From assembly GCA_022798035.1 (NCBI GenBank), contig JAAWLS010000016.1, forward strand, positions 1 through 15,636: a stretch of DNA of 15,636 bases. Reading direction: 5' to 3'. Shown here in pieces: positions 1 through 7,729 of the stretch. Position 1 is the stretch's first letter; each line of letters starts with the position of its first letter. The stretch comes from Lachnospiraceae bacterium (lineage in GTDB: Bacteria; Bacillota; Clostridia; Lachnospirales; Lachnospiraceae). The notes beneath the pieces are model-generated. The model searched no databases. It was not told the origin of the DNA and worked only from the letters and a program-made list of their open reading frames with translations. A program made the translations under genes and the position numbers.

Positions 1-132
1 GAATTGAATGAGCAGGAACACGCAGCATTTCTTATGAATTTTCAAAGGTCAATCCTTTTATCATTAGAAAAACGGAATCTCTTGACCGCATCACAGCGGG
101 AACGTTGTTTACTTGAACTTGAAAAACAATAA
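1..132 (+). CDS. C-terminal end of an unidentified small protein of the mobile element (5' partial)
   Basis: Frame 1 is open from the first base to a TAA at 130-132 and gives the last 43 residues of a protein. They are Leu- and Gln/Glu-rich and look helical, with no cysteine motif or transmembrane stretch. The stop is 12 bases before the recombinase start, and the AAGGAG ribosome site of the recombinase overlaps the stop codon, so the two genes are very likely co-transcribed. Short helical proteins often sit directly upstream of large serine recombinases in clostridial elements, but I cannot assign a family. The start lies outside the window. Confidence 0.55.
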   Translation, partial: ELNEQEHAAFLMNFQRSILLSLEKRNLLTASQRERCLLELEKQ

Positions 133-144
133 GGAGATATTCTT

Positions 145-1764
145 ATGTCAATAGATAAATACGAAATTCTAAATCAAGAAAGAAAGATACAGCGCACAAA
201 GAGGAAGGTTGCCGTATACTGCCGGGTATCTACGGACAACGAAGACCAGGCAAATTCATTTGAAAGCCAGCAGCGTTATTTCAAACAATATATAGAGCGC
301 AATCCTGATTGGGAGCTTTATGCGGTGTTCGCAGATGAAGGTATCTCTGGTACGAATACGAAAAAAAGGAAAGAATTTAACCGTATGATTGCGTGTGCGA
401 AGAACGGTGATTTTGATTTGATTGTAACAAAAGAAATCTCTCGTTTTGCGAGGAATACCCTTGACAGCATATTCTATACCCGTGACCTCAAAAAGCACGG
501 CGTGGGCGTTATCTTTCTGAATGATAACATCAACACTTTAGATGGCGATGCGGAGCTTCGCCTTGCCATTATGTCCTCGATTGCCCAGGAGGAAAGCCGT
601 AAGACTTCCGAGCGTGTAAAATGGGGGCAGAAACGCCGGATGGAGCAGGGAGTTGTGTTCGGACGGAGTATGCTTGGTTACGATGTGAAAGACGGCAAAA
701 TGTATATTAACGAGGATGGAGCGAAAGTTGTCCGCCTTATTTTCCACAAGTTTGTAAATGAGGGAAAGGGTTCTCATGTCATCGCCCGTGAGCTTAAAGA
801 AGCAGGCATACAGCCGATGCGGCGCGCAAAAGAATGGCAGAATACCGTAATTCTGCGCATTCTCCGCAACGAGAAATACTGCGGGGACCTGGTACAGAAA
901 AAAACTTATACGCCGGATTTCCTTTCTCACGAAAAGAAATATAATCGGGGACAGGAAGAATTTATTATCATTAAGGAACACCACGAACCTATTATATCCC
1001 GTGAGATGTTTGAAGAAGCAAATCGTATTTTAGACAAGCGCGCTTTGTCGCAAGAGAGGAAGGCAAAGTACAGCAGCCGTTATCTTTTTTCTGGGAAAAT
1101 CAAATGCGGATGCTGCGGCTCCAGTTATGTGGCAAGATATAAAAACCGAAAAAACAAAAGCAAATACAAAGCATGGCGCTGCAATGAAGCCGTCAGGCAT
1201 GGAAGTCCTCACATTGATAATGATGGAAAGAAAGCCGGCTGTACAGGAATGAGTATACGAAACGAAGACGCAGTCCACATCATGTATCTTGTCACAAGGA
1301 GTTTGAAATATAATAAGAAGAAAATCATTGACAATTTACTTGCTGTTATCAAGTCTATTACTGCAATGGATAATATGGGCACAGATACGGAGAGATTGAA
1401 GTTTCAGATAAAAACCCTTGAGAAAAAACGCGCGAATCTCATTGAGCTTTATACATCTGGCGATATCACAAGAGATGAATTTACAGCAGCAAGAGCAAAA
1501 TGTGAGACTGAGATTACCGAACTGCAGTCTGTCAGGAATAATATTGATAAACAAGAAAAACGTATGGAAGGACAGCAGGAGCTTGGAAAGGAAATCACAG
1601 AAGCGATAAACGAGCTTATAAACGGCGTGGAATATGAAGATGTTTTCTATAAAGAAATTTTAGATAAAATGGTCGTAAATGATAAAGGGCACGTTGATGT
1701 ATATTTGAATCTGCTCCCTTTCAAATGGAGCTATACGGCTGCGGAAAGCTTAAACCGTCCATAG
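145..1764 (+). CDS. Large serine recombinase (site-specific integrase/excisionase)
   Basis: The 539-residue protein has the three-part structure of large serine recombinases. The N-terminal resolvase domain (about residues 22-165) carries the YCRVST motif with nucleophile Ser29 and the conserved ISRFARN stretch near residue 98. A recombinase DNA-binding domain follows (about 170-300). A zinc ribbon has Cys321, Cys324, Cys346 and Cys366, and a long charged coiled coil (about 425-490) is typical of the part controlling synapsis and direction. Length is normal for the family. An AAGGAG site at 131-136 supports ATG 145. The enzyme would integrate and excise the element by cutting both strands at short att cores through a phosphoserine link. 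Its place beside a broken cotJC says that gene is the target. The 3' end overlaps, tail to tail, the chimeric cotJC reading frame on the minus strand. Confidence 0.93.
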   Translation: MSIDKYEILNQERKIQRTKRKVAVYCRVSTDNEDQANSFESQQRYFKQYIERNPDWELYAVFADEGISGTNTKKRKEFNRMIACAKNGDFDLIVTKEISRFARNTLDSIFYTRDLKKHGVGVIFLNDNINTLDGDAELRLAIMSSIAQEESRKTSERVKWGQKRRMEQGVVFGRSMLGYDVKDGKMYINEDGAKVVRLIFHKFVNEGKGSHVIARELKEAGIQPMRRAKEWQNTVILRILRNEKYCGDLVQKKTYTPDFLSHEKKYNRGQEEFIIIKEHHEPIISREMFEEANRILDKRALSQERKAKYSSRYLFSGKIKCGCCGSSYVARYKNRKNKSKYKAWRCNEAVRHGSPHIDNDGKKAGCTGMSIRNEDAVHIMYLVTRSLKYNKKKIIDNLLAVIKSITAMDNMGTDTERLKFQIKTLEKKRANLIELYTSGDITRDEFTAARAKCETEITELQSVRNNIDKQEKRMEGQQELGKEITEAINELINGVEYEDVFYKEILDKMVVNDKGHVDVYLNLLPFKWSYTAAESLNRP

Positions 1765-1990
1765 GGTATTTTCTCTTCCTCTGGAACATTTCAAAGGCTT
1801 CTGTACCAATATCCGTCAACAGCCCTGCAACTTCCCGGTAAGGCATGGTATAACGCTGAGAAAGATAGCGCATAGAAGCGGAAAGTTCACCGTCCGGACC
1901 CCCAAACTGGCTGATGATTACCTGGGCAATCTGGGGATTGGTCTGGGTAATGTTGACTGGGTATTGCAGCCGTTTTTCATAATTCCACAT
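1721..1990 (-). pseudogene. cotJC: Interrupted cotJC: N-terminal part of a manganese-catalase-like spore coat protein
   Basis: Residues 1-64 closely fit CotJC, a di-manganese catalase-fold protein of the inner spore coat: a WNYEKxLQYPVN start, the GGPDGEL helix with a likely metal ligand Glu35, then LRYxSQRYTMP and LLTDIGTE. Full-length members are about 190-200 residues. Here the frame leaves the family after Glu64, just before the metal-binding His, and adds 25 residues from element DNA before stopping at 1721 inside the recombinase gene. ATG 1990 is chosen because AAGGAGG lies about 10 bases upstream and because it overlaps the cotJB stop as TAATG. The product as read cannot be an active catalase. 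Whether the gene is dead or is restored by excision during sporulation cannot be told from this window. Confidence 0.85.
1796..1807. other. Candidate attachment-site junction (element/cotJC boundary)
   Basis: Read on the minus strand, codons down to about 1798 encode the conserved CotJC stretch ending Asp-Ile-Gly-Thr-Glu. Family members continue with Glu-x-Ala-His, but here the frame reads Ala-Phe-Glu-Met-Phe. The crossover core is probably inside or next to GGTACAGAAG (minus strand, 1807-1798), since core bases are shared by both sides. The exact core needs the left junction, which is outside the window. Confidence 0.5.
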
Positions 1991-2771: not shown

Positions 2772-2849
2772 GAAAACATAAATTATCTTTTTAAAGTTCA
2801 TTAATTGTGCTGTTAAAATACACAGGAAATGGCGAGGAGTGTGAGAGTT

Positions 2850-5800
2850 GTGAAAAAGACAGACGGCTATACACAAAAAAGAGCACCTGAGAAGAAGCAC
2901 CCAGTTATACAGAAGTTTTCTACTGTCTTGCTATCCGTATGTTTGCTGATAGTGTCCCTTCCGATAGATTTTTTTGGCGTGGAGGTTCAGGCAGAGGAAA
3001 TACTGTGGAATATCATATCTTTTTCGGAATTGCAGGATGAGGTGAAATATCAAGCTGCTGACACTGGCACACCGGAGGAAAAATTAAATCTGCCGGACAC
3101 CTTAGAGGCCGTATGCGTTTCAGCAGAACTTCTCGGGAATCATGCAGATGTTTTGAATACAGAAGAAACAAAAGGGAAAGAAACCATTGTGATAGAACAT
3201 ATCACCTGGGTAAGCGAACCTGTGTATGACAGTCAAATAGAAGGAATTTATACCTTTCTTCCAATTCTTCCAGAGAGTTATGCAGCACAAGATAATGCAG
3301 CACTTCCTGAAATCAAGGTAACAGTGACAGAATCTGAGCAGCAGGAAGAAGGAAATCTGAAGACAAACGGACAGGAAGAAGGAAATCAGGAAGCCAACGA
3401 GCAGGAGGTAGAAAATCCAGAGACGAACGGGCAGGAAGAACAGAATCAAGAGGCAGAAAATCCAGCAGAAGAAGAGGTATTAAATAATGCTGTGGAAGGA
3501 AAGTCTGGCGAAGAGGGAGAAGAGGAAGTAATCGGAAGGCAATTTTGGGAAGAGACTAAACCAGAAGAACAGGTAATGAAAACCAATGATGATGGAGCAG
3601 AAGATAATGTGATTACAGGAAATTATGAGGTTCCCCCTGATACCCTGTGGGAAGAAAGTAAAACGTTACGAGACTGTGAACTTACCATCAATTCAGATAT
3701 CACTTTAATTCCAGCAGGAGGACTTCAAATTGAAGGAAACGTCACCATAAAGGGAGGCGGCAGAATTGAAGGGAAGGATAACGGATTTACGATAACTGTC
3801 GGAAATAATGCAGAATTGACCTTGGAAAATATCACAATAGATGGAGCATCTATAGTAGAGTGGAAAGCTACGCTGATAAGGGTTAAAGAAGGAGGAAAAC
3901 TGACTTTAGGAGCAGGATGTACGATAGAAAATGTAAATGTAAAAGGACGCCTGGATGAAAACTATAATCCTAATTTAATTTATTTTTCAAAAAATGCAAA
4001 AGGACTTTTTAAGGAGAATGCAGCAATTAGAAATTGTTCTGCAAGGACATATCAGAACGGATATGATACGATAATCAACATGGCAAAGGTTACAGGGGAA
4101 CGCAGTGAATTGACGATTGACGGGGGAACTTATGAGCATAACACGGGAGAGGCGCTGTTTTTTACTCAGGGAGTCACAACCATTAATGGCGGTACTTTTC
4201 AGTATAATTATGGAAATTACAGCAGCATTATCTATCAGGGGTACAGTGCTCCATATGGGAATCAGATAATTATTAATGGAGGGACTTTTCAAAAGAATGA
4301 ATCGAAATACCATGGAATGATTCACATCTGGACTTATGACGAATTACATATCAACGGCGGAAATTTTATTGAGAATACCGCAGGTGACTCTGGAGGATGC
4401 GTCGACGTAAGAGGTCACGGAAAAGCATATATTACCGGCGGAAATTTTCTGCGCAACCATGCAGAAGAAAAGGGAGGGTGTATTTATTCCAGCAGTCTCG
4501 AGGAGATACATATTGACGGTGGAAATTTTGAGGGCAATACAGTAGGCGCAGGGCCTGACGGTCTGAAAGGAAGCGGCGCAATTCATATTGAAGCTTATTT
4601 ATATCAGTTTAAGGAAGAACAATGGTACGGAAAAAGTTTTTTCTCTGGAAAAGCAAAATTTAATTTTGATACTTCTACAGAGTCTGACAAAGACGCCATT
4701 ACTTTTCAAGACCTTGATACCAATCCTAAATATGGAAGACTGTATATAAAAGGTTCTTTAGAAGTTCCTATTAAAATGTTTGTAAATGCAGAAGAAGGCT
4801 ATGTAATTTGCGAAGGCACTGGATATACACTTACAAAGGAAGATGCAGAGCAGATTATTGTTGTGGATAAAGCAAATCATGAGAAAAAATGGCGCAAGGT
4901 ATTGGATGAAGAGAACAATCAGATTTACCTTTCCCTTATGGGGGAAGAACCAGAGCCAGAAATAGAAACTCTCACTGCTGACTTCTATTCCGGAAGTGAG
5001 GCCCAAAAAGAGAGCAAGAACATTGATGTATCTGAAACGGGAGGAGTTGTAACAACTTTAAAACTAAAAGAAATGCCTGGCTGGAATCCTCTGGGCTGGA
5101 GTCGAAATGCCGGGGGATACGACTGTGAAATAAGGGAAGAGGAAAACGTTACGCTGACGGAAAATACTTCTTTCTACGGCATTTATCAAAAAGACATTAC
5201 CCTTTCCTATGATTTAAACGGCGGGGACAGTCCTGCTCCGGAGGCAGAGACAAACCCCTGTTACGCGAATGTGCATCAGAACATTACATACAAAACGCCA
5301 GAATTTTCAATTGCAAAAGCTCCTGCCCGGGGAGGTTATCTCTTCCGTGGCTGGAATACACAGGCCGATGGAAAGGGAGCTTTCTATCAGGCAGGAGCCA
5401 GACATGTTTTCGACTGTGATACTGTCCTCTATGCCATTTGGGAAAAAGACCCAGACGCCGTTTCGTATCAAGTAGAACATTATCTTCAGGATTTGGAAGG
5501 GGACGGCTACACTCTTTTTGAAAATGATACGGAAACGCTTTGGGGAAAGAAAGGCGCTGCGGCTGCCGCAGAACCCAAAAGCTATGAGGGATTTACGGAA
5601 AACCGGAGCCACCCAGAGAGAAACGCTGCAGGAACTTTGGAAGAAAATGGCAGCCTCCTGTTAAAATTCTATTATGACAGGAACATTTATGAAATCAGTT
5701 TTGACTTAAACGGAGGAGACGGCACCGCACCAAAGACCCAGCAGGTCCGCTATGGAGGTTTGCTTCAGCAGGTGAAAGAACCTGGAAGACGGGGTTACAA

Positions 5801-6998
5801 CTTTAAGGGCTGGCACTTAGAACAAAAAGGAATGGATGCAGGGCTCTGGGAGTTTCAACGTCCAGTGGAGGAAAACACAGCCTCTCTTCAGACCACTCTT
5901 TATGCCAAATGGAAAGATGAACTGGCTCCGGAGGCCGGAAAAGCTTCATTCAGCAGCAGCCATAAGGACTTCCTGGACTGGGTAATTCAAAAGAGAAATC
6001 TTGTGATTACCGTTCCTGTAGTGGAAGAGGGAAGTGGATTATTGGAAGCTTCCTACACCCTGACGCCGGAAGAGGGAGAAAAGGCGGAAGGAGAGGCACA
6101 GATTTATGAGACGTCGACAGGTGAGAAAGCTCTCTCCTATGGAAGTGGAACTTCCGTGCTGCGCGCTTTTGAGAAAGGGGCAGGAAGCGGCAGGTACGAA
6201 GCCAGAATTACAGTGGAAGAGGACTTTAAGGGGACGGTTTCTATTACCTGTCAGGACAAGGCAGGCAATGTTTCCGCAGAAAAACTTCTGACCTCTTACG
6301 GAGGAGGAATTATTGTGGAAGACAATGCTCCTATCATCACGTTTTCCAACACAGAGGAGGAGACGGCCGGAGCGCCTATAGAGGCGGATGTTCTGGTGGA
6401 AGATGACCGAAACGGTAGCATTACGGGAGGTCTTGCCGGAATCTCCTATCAGGTGGATGAAGAGACAGAAGTGATGGTTCCCAAAGAGAAATTTGAAAAA
6501 GAAATTCTGGAGGTTTATGGTTTCACTGTAACTGTAAAGGGAGAAGGAAAGCATGTGCTGAAAGTAAAGGCCAAAGACCATGCCGGAAACGAGAGCATCC
6601 GGGAAATCTCCCTGAAAATCAGCAAAAAGAAAGACAAACCGGTCAAAGGGCCGGAAGAAAAAAGTCCGGAGAAACCAGGTGGATTTCCAAGGCCGGCAGG
6701 GCCGGAACCCAGAACTGGAGAGAGCGGAAATGTGAAAATCTATGCTACTTTTGCCATGATAGCGGGATTCGGCTACCTGCTGTTATACTTTGCAGAAGAG
6801 AATGGAATTACAGAAAAAGAGAAAGACGAGATTATACAGCGGCTGGTAAACTGGGCTAAGAAAGGGGGCCGCATCCGGCGGACGCTGGCGCTTGCATCCA
6901 TTTTCCTGTTTCTGGCCTACTACCACAGCATTGGAAAGAGCGTGACAGTGGAGTGGAGGGACGTATGCAAGGAAAAGGCAGGAAAAAAATCAAAGTAA
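2850..6998 (+). CDS. Very large secreted, cell-wall-linked repeat protein (beta-helix, InlB-type and Ig-like modules)
   Basis: An approximately 1,382-residue surface protein, probably an adhesin or wall-associated factor; its ligand is unknown. In order: a signal peptide ending near 2995 (VQA before EE); a Glu/Gln/Asn-rich linker (about 3330-3530); a right-handed beta-helix region (about 3620-4580) with coils marked by I-x-GG-(T/N)-F at 4116, 4182, 4272, 4350, 4431 and 4512; InlB/Flg_new-like repeats with LNGGD...GW...YAxW (about 4970-5190, 5205-5445, 5694-5912), split by a MucBP-like stretch (5460-5700); Ig-like modules with CQDKAGN and KDHAGN (about 5930-6620); a Pro-rich linker; EPRTGE at 6705-6722; and two hydrophobic segments. 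GTG 2850 is preferred because GAGGAG (2834-2839) is 10 bases upstream. ATG 2829 is an alternative with a poorly spaced site. The end overlaps the sortase gene. Confidence 0.85.
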   Translation: MKKTDGYTQKRAPEKKHPVIQKFSTVLLSVCLLIVSLPIDFFGVEVQAEEILWNIISFSELQDEVKYQAADTGTPEEKLNLPDTLEAVCVSAELLGNHADVLNTEETKGKETIVIEHITWVSEPVYDSQIEGIYTFLPILPESYAAQDNAALPEIKVTVTESEQQEEGNLKTNGQEEGNQEANEQEVENPETNGQEEQNQEAENPAEEEVLNNAVEGKSGEEGEEEVIGRQFWEETKPEEQVMKTNDDGAEDNVITGNYEVPPDTLWEESKTLRDCELTINSDITLIPAGGLQIEGNVTIKGGGRIEGKDNGFTITVGNNAELTLENITIDGASIVEWKATLIRVKEGGKLTLGAGCTIENVNVKGRLDENYNPNLIYFSKNAKGLFKENAAIRNCSARTYQNGYDTIINMAKVTGERSELTIDGGTYEHNTGEALFFTQGVTTINGGTFQYNYGNYSSIIYQGYSAPYGNQIIINGGTFQKNESKYHGMIHIWTYDELHINGGNFIENTAGDSGGCVDVRGHGKAYITGGNFLRNHAEEKGGCIYSSSLEEIHIDGGNFEGNTVGAGPDGLKGSGAIHIEAYLYQFKEEQWYGKSFFSGKAKFNFDTSTESDKDAITFQDLDTNPKYGRLYIKGSLEVPIKMFVNAEEGYVICEGTGYTLTKEDAEQIIVVDKANHEKKWRKVLDEENNQIYLSLMGEEPEPEIETLTADFYSGSEAQKESKNIDVSETGGVVTTLKLKEMPGWNPLGWSRNAGGYDCEIREEENVTLTENTSFYGIYQKDITLSYDLNGGDSPAPEAETNPCYANVHQNITYKTPEFSIAKAPARGGYLFRGWNTQADGKGAFYQAGARHVFDCDTVLYAIWEKDPDAVSYQVEHYLQDLEGDGYTLFENDTETLWGKKGAAAAAEPKSYEGFTENRSHPERNAAGTLEENGSLLLKFYYDRNIYEISFDLNGGDGTAPKTQQVRYGGLLQQVKEPGRRGYNFKGWHLEQKGMDAGLWEFQRPVEENTASLQTTLYAKWKDELAPEAGKASFSSSHKDFLDWVIQKRNLVITVPVVEEGSGLLEASYTLTPEEGEKAEGEAQIYETSTGEKALSYGSGTSVLRAFEKGAGSGRYEARITVEEDFKGTVSITCQDKAGNVSAEKLLTSYGGGIIVEDNAPIITFSNTEEETAGAPIEADVLVEDDRNGSITGGLAGISYQVDEETEVMVPKEKFEKEILEVYGFTVTVKGEGKHVLKVKAKDHAGNESIREISLKISKKKDKPVKGPEEKSPEKPGGFPRPAGPEPRTGESGNVKIYATFAMIAGFGYLLLYFAEENGITEKEKDEIIQRLVNWAKKGGRIRRTLALASIFLFLAYYHSIGKSVTVEWRDVCKEKAGKKSK
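4116..4560 (+). repeat. Beta-helix coil repeats in the surface protein
   Basis: Six copies of Ile-x-Gly-Gly-(Thr/Asn)-(Phe/Tyr), most followed two residues later by Asn, start at 4116, 4182, 4272, 4350, 4431 and 4512. They are 22-30 residues apart, which fits successive turns of a parallel right-handed beta-helix. Codon use differs between copies, so this is an old structural repeat rather than a recent DNA duplication. Confidence 0.75.
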
Positions 6999-7729
6999 TA
7001 AAGACCATGCTTTTTCTGACGATGATAGTATGCCTGATTCCAGTTATTCAGGCATACTATTTATCTGTCAGACATGAAAAACAACAGGAGTCTCTGCAGA
7101 GGCAGAGGAAGGAACATGTGATGCCAGAGAGCGGTATTTCTTCTGAAACCGGCGGCATATTGGAACAATACAGAGAGCTTTATCAGGAGAACAAAGATTT
7201 GGCAGGGTGGCTCAGAATCGAAGGTCTTAACATTGACAATCCCGTTATGCAGTGTGTGGATGATGAATATTATCTTTCTCACAATTTTTATAAAGAAGAG
7301 GACAAATATGGCTGTCTCTATGTGAGAAACATGGCAGATATCCATACCCCTGGAACAAACTTTATTATTTATGGGCACAATATGAGAGATGGCTCCATGT
7401 TTGGAAGTTTAAAGAACTATGAGAAAGAAACTTTCTATAAAGAGCACAGAGAAATCTTCTTTGACACTCTGTTTGAAGAGCGGGTTTATGAAATTGCAGC
7501 TGTCTTTTCAGCAAATATCTATGAAGAAAATGCATTTCCATACTATCAGTTCTATCAGGCTGATACAGAGAGCGAATTTCGGGATTTTTATGAAAATGTA
7601 AAAAAACATGCTTTCTATGACACAGGAGTCACAGCGGAATGGGGAGATACATTTCTCACTCTGTCTACTTGTTTCGGGCAAAGAGAGGAGGAACGGCTTG
7701 TAATTGTGGCTAAGCAGAAAAAAGAATAA
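6965..7729 (+). CDS. srtB: Class B sortase
   Basis: A membrane-anchored transpeptidase of 254 residues, normal for SrtB. A basic start and one transmembrane segment (about residues 11-30) precede the catalytic domain. The domain shows the IIYGHNM motif with His138, the TLSTC motif with nucleophile Cys236, and Arg244 in EERLVIV, the full sortase triad. It would cut a TG-type sorting motif and join the protein to wall peptide. The gene overlaps the end of the large surface protein gene by 34 bases, so that protein is the obvious substrate. ATG 6965 is preferred, with GGAGGG at 6955-6960; an in-frame GTG at 6953 would add four residues. Confidence 0.92.
   Translation: MQGKGRKKIKVIKTMLFLTMIVCLIPVIQAYYLSVRHEKQQESLQRQRKEHVMPESGISSETGGILEQYRELYQENKDLAGWLRIEGLNIDNPVMQCVDDEYYLSHNFYKEEDKYGCLYVRNMADIHTPGTNFIIYGHNMRDGSMFGSLKNYEKETFYKEHREIFFDTLFEERVYEIAAVFSANIYEENAFPYYQFYQADTESEFRDFYENVKKHAFYDTGVTAEWGDTFLTLSTCFGQREEERLVIVAKQKKE

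Follow-up and report, generated by a model that had tools for sequence, protein, structure and literature searches.

The spore-coat gene cotJC of Lachnospiraceae as a convergent landing site for large serine recombinase elements and a strong candidate for a gene stitched together only at spore formation

Introduction

In C. difficile and B. subtilis, a large serine recombinase (LSR) element, skin, splits the mother-cell gene sigK, and excision of the element rejoins the gene. According to the available text of PMC5025042, the LSR of skinCd in C. difficile, CD1231, is constitutive, and its small recombination directionality factor (RDF), CD1234, is under the control of sigma-E and SpoIIID. LSR elements also lie in other sporulation genes, the accessible descriptions placing SPbeta in spsM, gin in gerE, vfbin in spoVFB and yin in yabG. 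The gin element is not prophage-like, to go by the accessible parts of PMC5595907 and PMC10747680, and the small elements described here are alike in this respect. Distantly related LSRs have been reported to converge on the genes for a Mg chelatase/ATP-dependent protease and a prolyl isomerase (PMC10083194, in the text available). In C. difficile, the attR of prophage phi027 adjoins a CotJC-like gene; PMC11222575 and PMC12122855 present that gene, located downstream of attR, as an entire ORF of 678 bp and do not describe it as split.

The locus studied here resembles skin in that an LSR element splits a mother-cell gene, and it resembles the Mg chelatase and prolyl isomerase cases in that one conserved target gene is common to distant LSRs. 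It differs from skin in its target, cotJC, in the presence of four insertion sites, several LSR families and up to four gene pieces, and in that excision, known for skin, is a prediction for cotJC. Unlike for cotJC, several sites or elements per gene are not described for spsM, gerE, spoVFB or yabG in the available parts of PMC5595907 and PMC10747680, and cotJC is absent from the text of both papers. The main text of PMC10083194 mentions neither catalase nor spore, and sporulation occurs there in a reference title only. No report of a split cotJC was found in the open PMC literature. The inferred working logic is that of skin in sigK and SPbeta in spsM, transferred to a new gene, cotJC, at several sites and in some genomes with two or three elements per gene.

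Results and discussion

The DNA analysed, referred to as the window, is a whole contig (G000:C315) of 15,636 nt, from a genome in 325 contigs that is 63.6% complete. On its minus strand, the open frames of cotJA (2253-2672; PF11007, E 1.8e-17) and cotJB (1990-2316; PF12652, E 1.8e-28) lead into a 5' piece of cotJC, the gene for a manganese catalase of the spore coat. This piece (codons 1-62, 1804-1990, minus strand) is open and matches positions 1-67 of the 284 in the Mn_catalase profile. Residues 1-64 are 100% identical to an intact CotJC of the genus and the similarity ends there, at the Gly-Thr-Glu motif, where the core GGTA (1804-1807) is found. Together with the element arm CAGAAGCCTTTGAAATGTTCC (1783-1803), the core forms one half of an attachment site (1783-1807, minus strand), and the same core and arm occur in relatives. 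A complete LSR gene of 539 aa (145-1764, plus strand), with the Pfam domains Resolvase, Recombinase and Zn_ribbon_recom, ends 40 bp from the core and is oriented towards the core and the broken gene. Open frames and Pfam matches thus confirm the original prediction of an intact cotJA and cotJB, a cotJC lost at Gly-Thr-Glu and a complete LSR abutting the break. Upstream of the recombinase lies the 3' end of a small ORF (43 codons and a stop; 1-132, plus strand), a candidate RDF gene whose position is kept in relatives. In all, 1.8 kb of the element is present; the contig ends within it and the far end is unassembled.

The neighbours of the cotJ operon are a gene for a 1389-aa protein with Listeria-Bacteroides repeats (2829-7729, plus strand) and then a sortase gene. 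The genome holds a second 5' piece of cotJC, on the short contig C237 (G000:C237:1-1553; L051, L242), with 76% identical residues and adjoining a recombinase 47% identical to that of the window; this contig may be foreign, or the piece may belong to a second copy of the gene.

Among 29 genomes of the genus, that of the window included, cotJC is broken in 20, whole in 7 and absent from 2, so that the gene is split in 20/27. The broken genes include two cut at a different, later site (G007 and G028), one represented by its 5' piece only (G016) and one by its 3' piece only (G021). Where both pieces lie on one contig (G003, G004, G006, G014 and G025), their order and strand are correct in 5/5 cases, and the distance between them is 18-80 kb. 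The 5' side of the junction reads GATATnGGTA and continues into GAAGCCCCTGAAATGTTCC-like arms, and the 3' side, at the other end of the element, has an arm of the form TGGAACATT..GCTTCT..GGTA or GGAACATT..GCTTCT..GGTA; G008 and G023 have a different junction, a few bases further on. Joining the two sides at GGTA in silico, by script, gave the GTEELAHME motif in frame in 13/13 genomes, of which G004 and G006 are still open at the later site. The elements share with skin-like elements the gene halves in the same orientation at both ends (in relatives), a serine recombinase, a shared att core, and a frame that is restored on joining. The 3' part of cotJC, which had been expected at the far end of the element, is where it should be in the relatives, on the right strand and rejoining in frame, while no 3' piece was found in the window's own genome, with its 325 contigs and 63.6% completeness.

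A separately expressed 3' half, fused to a reading frame of the element, was considered and rejected: the arm-side sequence in G018 differs by one base in length, so the arm side is not a conserved coding extension. G013 carries, 17 kb from an intact cotJC, a stray piece of the gene (codons 60-92) with the left arm of the element (G013:C4:94058-94168, L160). As a natural control for decay it was discarded, since the cotJC part of the fragment looks, by eye, identical to the genome's own cotJC over about 90 bp, which makes the event recent.

Breaks in cotJC extend well beyond the genus. The family was sampled with 150 Lachnospiraceae genomes, roughly one for each genus. A cotJC match is present in 98, and 44 of these (43/97 without the window genome) show an internal break at the DNA level, a count from which G106 (contig edges) and G056 (one frameshift) were left out. 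By our count, 18 genomes are broken at site S1 (QYGGPDGE), 17 at S2 (GTEELAH), 8 at S3 (AAEQ) and 6 at S4 (RFGE); five genomes have two break sites, which in G140 may belong to separate copies of the gene. We take these four motifs to be those of the manganese ligands of the catalase. In 15 intact genes, DNA conservation is higher at the four att cores than in random windows (0.850 vs 0.797, P 0.006). At the level of the class, 162/243 genomes have a cotJC match and 49 show the same break ranges, judged by match range only and with G423 left out (break at a contig edge). G117 has a cotJC 3' piece whose start, codon 166, coincides with no site from S1 to S4 (G117:C26:28113-28220, L286), perhaps a fifth site or another copy.

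Recombinase identity within a site is 38-43% at S1, 67-70% at S3, 81% at S4 and 45-79% for the two S2 types, and it falls to 21-32% between representatives of different sites. G030 has an additional S2 recombinase, with 21-28% identity to the ones it matched. The S1, S3 and S4 recombinases tested have Resolvase and Recombinase domains. A simple search of the available flanking stretches found no recombinase at the S2C junctions of G161, G023 and G145. In Clostridia, several LSR families have thus been shown to converge on cotJC, where each inserts at one of four fixed points in conserved motifs and leaves pieces able to rejoin exactly.

An artefact of assembly or binning might be suspected, given that many of the genomes are drafts or metagenome-assembled and that the window genome, 63.6% complete, has two 5' pieces. 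For the class of breaks this explanation is refuted and we give it practically no weight: the breaks lie within long contigs, five genomes (G003, G004, G006, G014, G025) have both pieces on one contig, and the breakpoints are constant, with matching arms. The housekeeping control gene PhoH, in a family sample drawn alike, is present in 149/150 genomes (the remaining one, G068, has a weak match only) and broken in only two, G043 and G059, both times at contig ends.

The association of the S2 cut with its recombinase was also followed from the junction and from the recombinase. A degenerate junction pattern retrieved 92 stretches from the species-genome collection, and 73 of the first 80 are cotJC 5' pieces. 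Species-genome scan and genus loci together give 94 distinct junctions, with the same cotJC cut in 85 and a sequence other than cotJC in 9. Where more than 300 bp of the element side is available, a related recombinase lies at most 150 bp from the cotJC junction in 57/63 cases, always facing it, and the other 6 of these S2A junctions have no recombinase nearby. When the recombinase alone was searched in 250 family genomes (E<=1e-100), 16 matches were obtained in 14 genomes, the two of the own genome included, and 12/16 adjoin a cotJC piece; six IMG/VR contigs were found by recombinase, four of them with cotJC pieces. The pairing of cotJC and recombinase is more than chance. Two loci, L111 and L143, have an S2A junction arm with no cotJC frame before it, in L111 with a 74% identical recombinase alongside; they are possibly another target or a rearranged copy.

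The gene may be cut more than once. Of 15 genomes surveyed for pieces, eight of them picked for an odd 5' piece, eight have cotJC in three or more pieces, all readable. In Eubacterium sp. 14-2 the pieces cover codons 1-64, 61-178 and 168-199; Parablautia muri, strain COE1 and G178 (three pieces, ordered, on one contig) and G177 (four pieces) are further cases. The inserts differ in content. That of 14-2 at S4 (2.8 kb) has a recombinase and a ParE-type toxin gene, and that of G155 at S1 measures 3.0 kb; elements of 3-4 kb are too small for phage structural genes. In the annotated part of the large elements, an amidase and an antirepressor are seen by eye in that of G008. Two recombinases are incomplete, that of G159 being truncated (273 aa) and that of G027 fragmentary. 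The anatomy is firm: a class-wide, convergent LSR hotspot in which the gene is divided into exact, readable pieces.

We infer that the small ORF before the S2A recombinase is a candidate RDF gene. In relatives it has 61-68 aa and lies directly upstream of the recombinase; two full-length relatives had no match in Pfam (above the cut-off) or NCBIfam. The S2A recombinase is preceded by TCGACA-N17-TRTAMT in 18/29 distinct upstream regions, which looks like a vegetative-type promoter. The window lacks this interval, and its small ORF runs straight into the recombinase. Before the S2A small ORF stands TTATATG-N15-CATACATT, whose -10 and -35 boxes are sigma-E-like; the corresponding region of the window lies outside the contig, and a divergent S2A subgroup lacks the CATA box.

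The layout GTAC-N11-CATA found in S2A also precedes unrelated small ORFs in S1, S3 and S4 elements and in one S2C element. GTAC and CATA are 11 apart at 34 distinct sites, many of them homologous copies, against 3-12 sites for each of the remaining ten spacings in the range 6-16; this recount excludes loci fetched by the motif, unlike a first count of 41. Setting aside S2A-type ORFs, the figure for spacing 11 is 21 against 3-12, and for sites before a small ORF it is 9 against 1-3. The strict form TATANNGTAC-N11-CATANANT has 16 matches in the 29 genus genomes against one for the reversed control, and 14 of the 16 lie, by our reading, in or before S2- or S4-type recombinase modules (two degenerate), an enrichment that is partly circular because sequences of S2A and S4 served to define the pattern. 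The broad motif GTACAA-N9-CATANNWT has, by our sums, 65 matches in the genus against 26 for the reversed control; most of the other matches inspected have no link to sporulation, so the motif names no sigma factor. The gene for sigma-K is in a single open frame in 27/29 genus genomes. Two elements without an assigned target (L324, L327) have the broad motif before a different small ORF (IICDD..EEAE..LA.RIKP). Upstream of the S2A small ORF there is, moreover, an inverted repeat (L048, L115) of CCCTCGTT with AACGAGGG or AATGAGGG, which covers the promoter-like motif and extends as far as the ribosome-binding site, so that translation of read-through transcripts might be blocked.

Split cotJC pieces are under strong purifying selection. 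Neither stop nor frameshift interrupts the genus pieces, 17 from the 5' side and 16 from the 3' side. Their pN/pS values, 0.029 (5') and 0.064 (3'), compare with 0.024 (5') and 0.070 (3') for nine genes that are unbroken at S2, although two are broken at S4, with synonymous sites of cotJC near saturation. In the family, a few pieces contain gaps, or stops close to the junction. A gene so constrained, with no full-length copy elsewhere, is unlikely to be dead in 20/27 genomes. The age of the elements is mixed. Part of the S2A family has moved between species recently: synonymous divergence between G011 and G003 is 1.9% for the recombinases and 82-85% for the cotJC pieces. This lineage has accordingly moved recently, and intact pieces in it prove little. 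We reject a long vertical inheritance of the common S2A lineage, its recombinases being far more alike than cotJC; from the table of recombinase and cotJC divergence, the comparisons of the window or G010 with other genomes were not used, as they are distorted by an indel.

This recent horizontal spread agrees with the main rival explanation, in which cotJC is a mere conserved attB for ordinary mobile elements, small mobilisable ones or prophages, with the knockout tolerated and excision rare and independent of sporulation. A vegetative-type recombinase promoter and att cores in conserved DNA would suit it too, as would the mild effect of losing CotJC-like proteins in the available text of PMC11222575 and PMC12122855. 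It would also be helped by the full-length copies of cotJC listed elsewhere in at least 10 of the 44 broken family genomes. The original prediction named a second intact cotJC next to a decayed fragment as a refuting outcome, and none of the 20 split genus genomes lists a full-length second gene. Its interpretation is partly supported: the LSR element and the exact rejoining in relatives agree with it, excision during sporulation stays a prediction, and the four sites, several unrelated recombinase families and up to four pieces go beyond it. Set against the rival are the 33 undecayed genus pieces with a pN/pS as in unbroken genes, the 20/27 split genus genomes, none with a full-length copy, and second and third insertions with every piece still readable. 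We regard it as possible but rather unlikely.

That a gene as constrained as cotJC is so often broken is best explained by its being rebuilt in the mother cell, and we think it fairly probable that skin-like elements have converged on cotJC and are excised there during sporulation. In favour of this are also the motif shared by small ORFs of the S1, S2A, S2C, S3 and S4 elements, the regulation known for skinCd and the single open frame of sigma-K. The mother cell would make the small directionality factor of the element during sporulation; this factor and the resident recombinase would then excise the element and restore cotJC. As the mother-cell chromosome is not inherited, the insertion would stay in the germ line. 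A more far-reaching version, to which we give slightly less than even chances, is that cotJC in pieces reflects programmed DNA elimination in the mother cell: several LSR families would have become developmental independently, at four points of the gene and with up to three elements per gene. Their small directionality factors would be driven by mother-cell promoters of one kind, and one signal would remove all inserts. Such a removal could be likened to that of internal eliminated sequences in ciliates.

Against mother-cell excision, the joined attP had no match in IMG/VR (three patterns) or in the 29 genus genomes (one pattern); assemblies from growing cells would rarely show the excised form. 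The vegetative look of the S2A recombinase promoter, the recent movement of the G011 and G003 lineage, the missing CATA box of the divergent S2A subgroup, the broad motif in L324 and L327, the incomplete recombinases of G159 and G027, the 6 junctions with no recombinase nearby and the full-length copies in the family count against it too. The attP result also bears on a reversible switch outside sporulation, in which the element would move in and out in growing cells and set the share of cells capable of making CotJC. The vegetative-type recombinase promoter would fit such a switch, and yin in yabG was integrated and excised at all times tested, in the accessible part of PMC10747680. It is nevertheless very improbable, in that no free attP is present in the 29 assembled genus genomes and growing cells would be likely to lose an element once it is excised.

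As its pieces could be rejoined exactly, cotJC is a strong candidate for a gene stitched together only at spore formation. Should excision prove developmental, the skin-like elements that gut Lachnospiraceae have on this one target gene would be unusually widespread, and cotJC would be a natural bacterial example of a gene assembled from as many as four segments of DNA. The reasons for which mobile DNA inserts into mother-cell genes would then become testable, the candidates being a haven without germ-line cost or the control of a coat enzyme. The elements also supply several sets of LSR, attP and candidate RDF. As a caution, annotation of many gut genomes will report a truncated cotJC or none at all.

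Partial cotJC sequences occur as well in phage records of human-faecal origin (MT839280, MT837874, MT839049, MT835881 and MT839831), the first two of which also carry a 44-48% identical recombinase; these records may be host junctions filed as phage.
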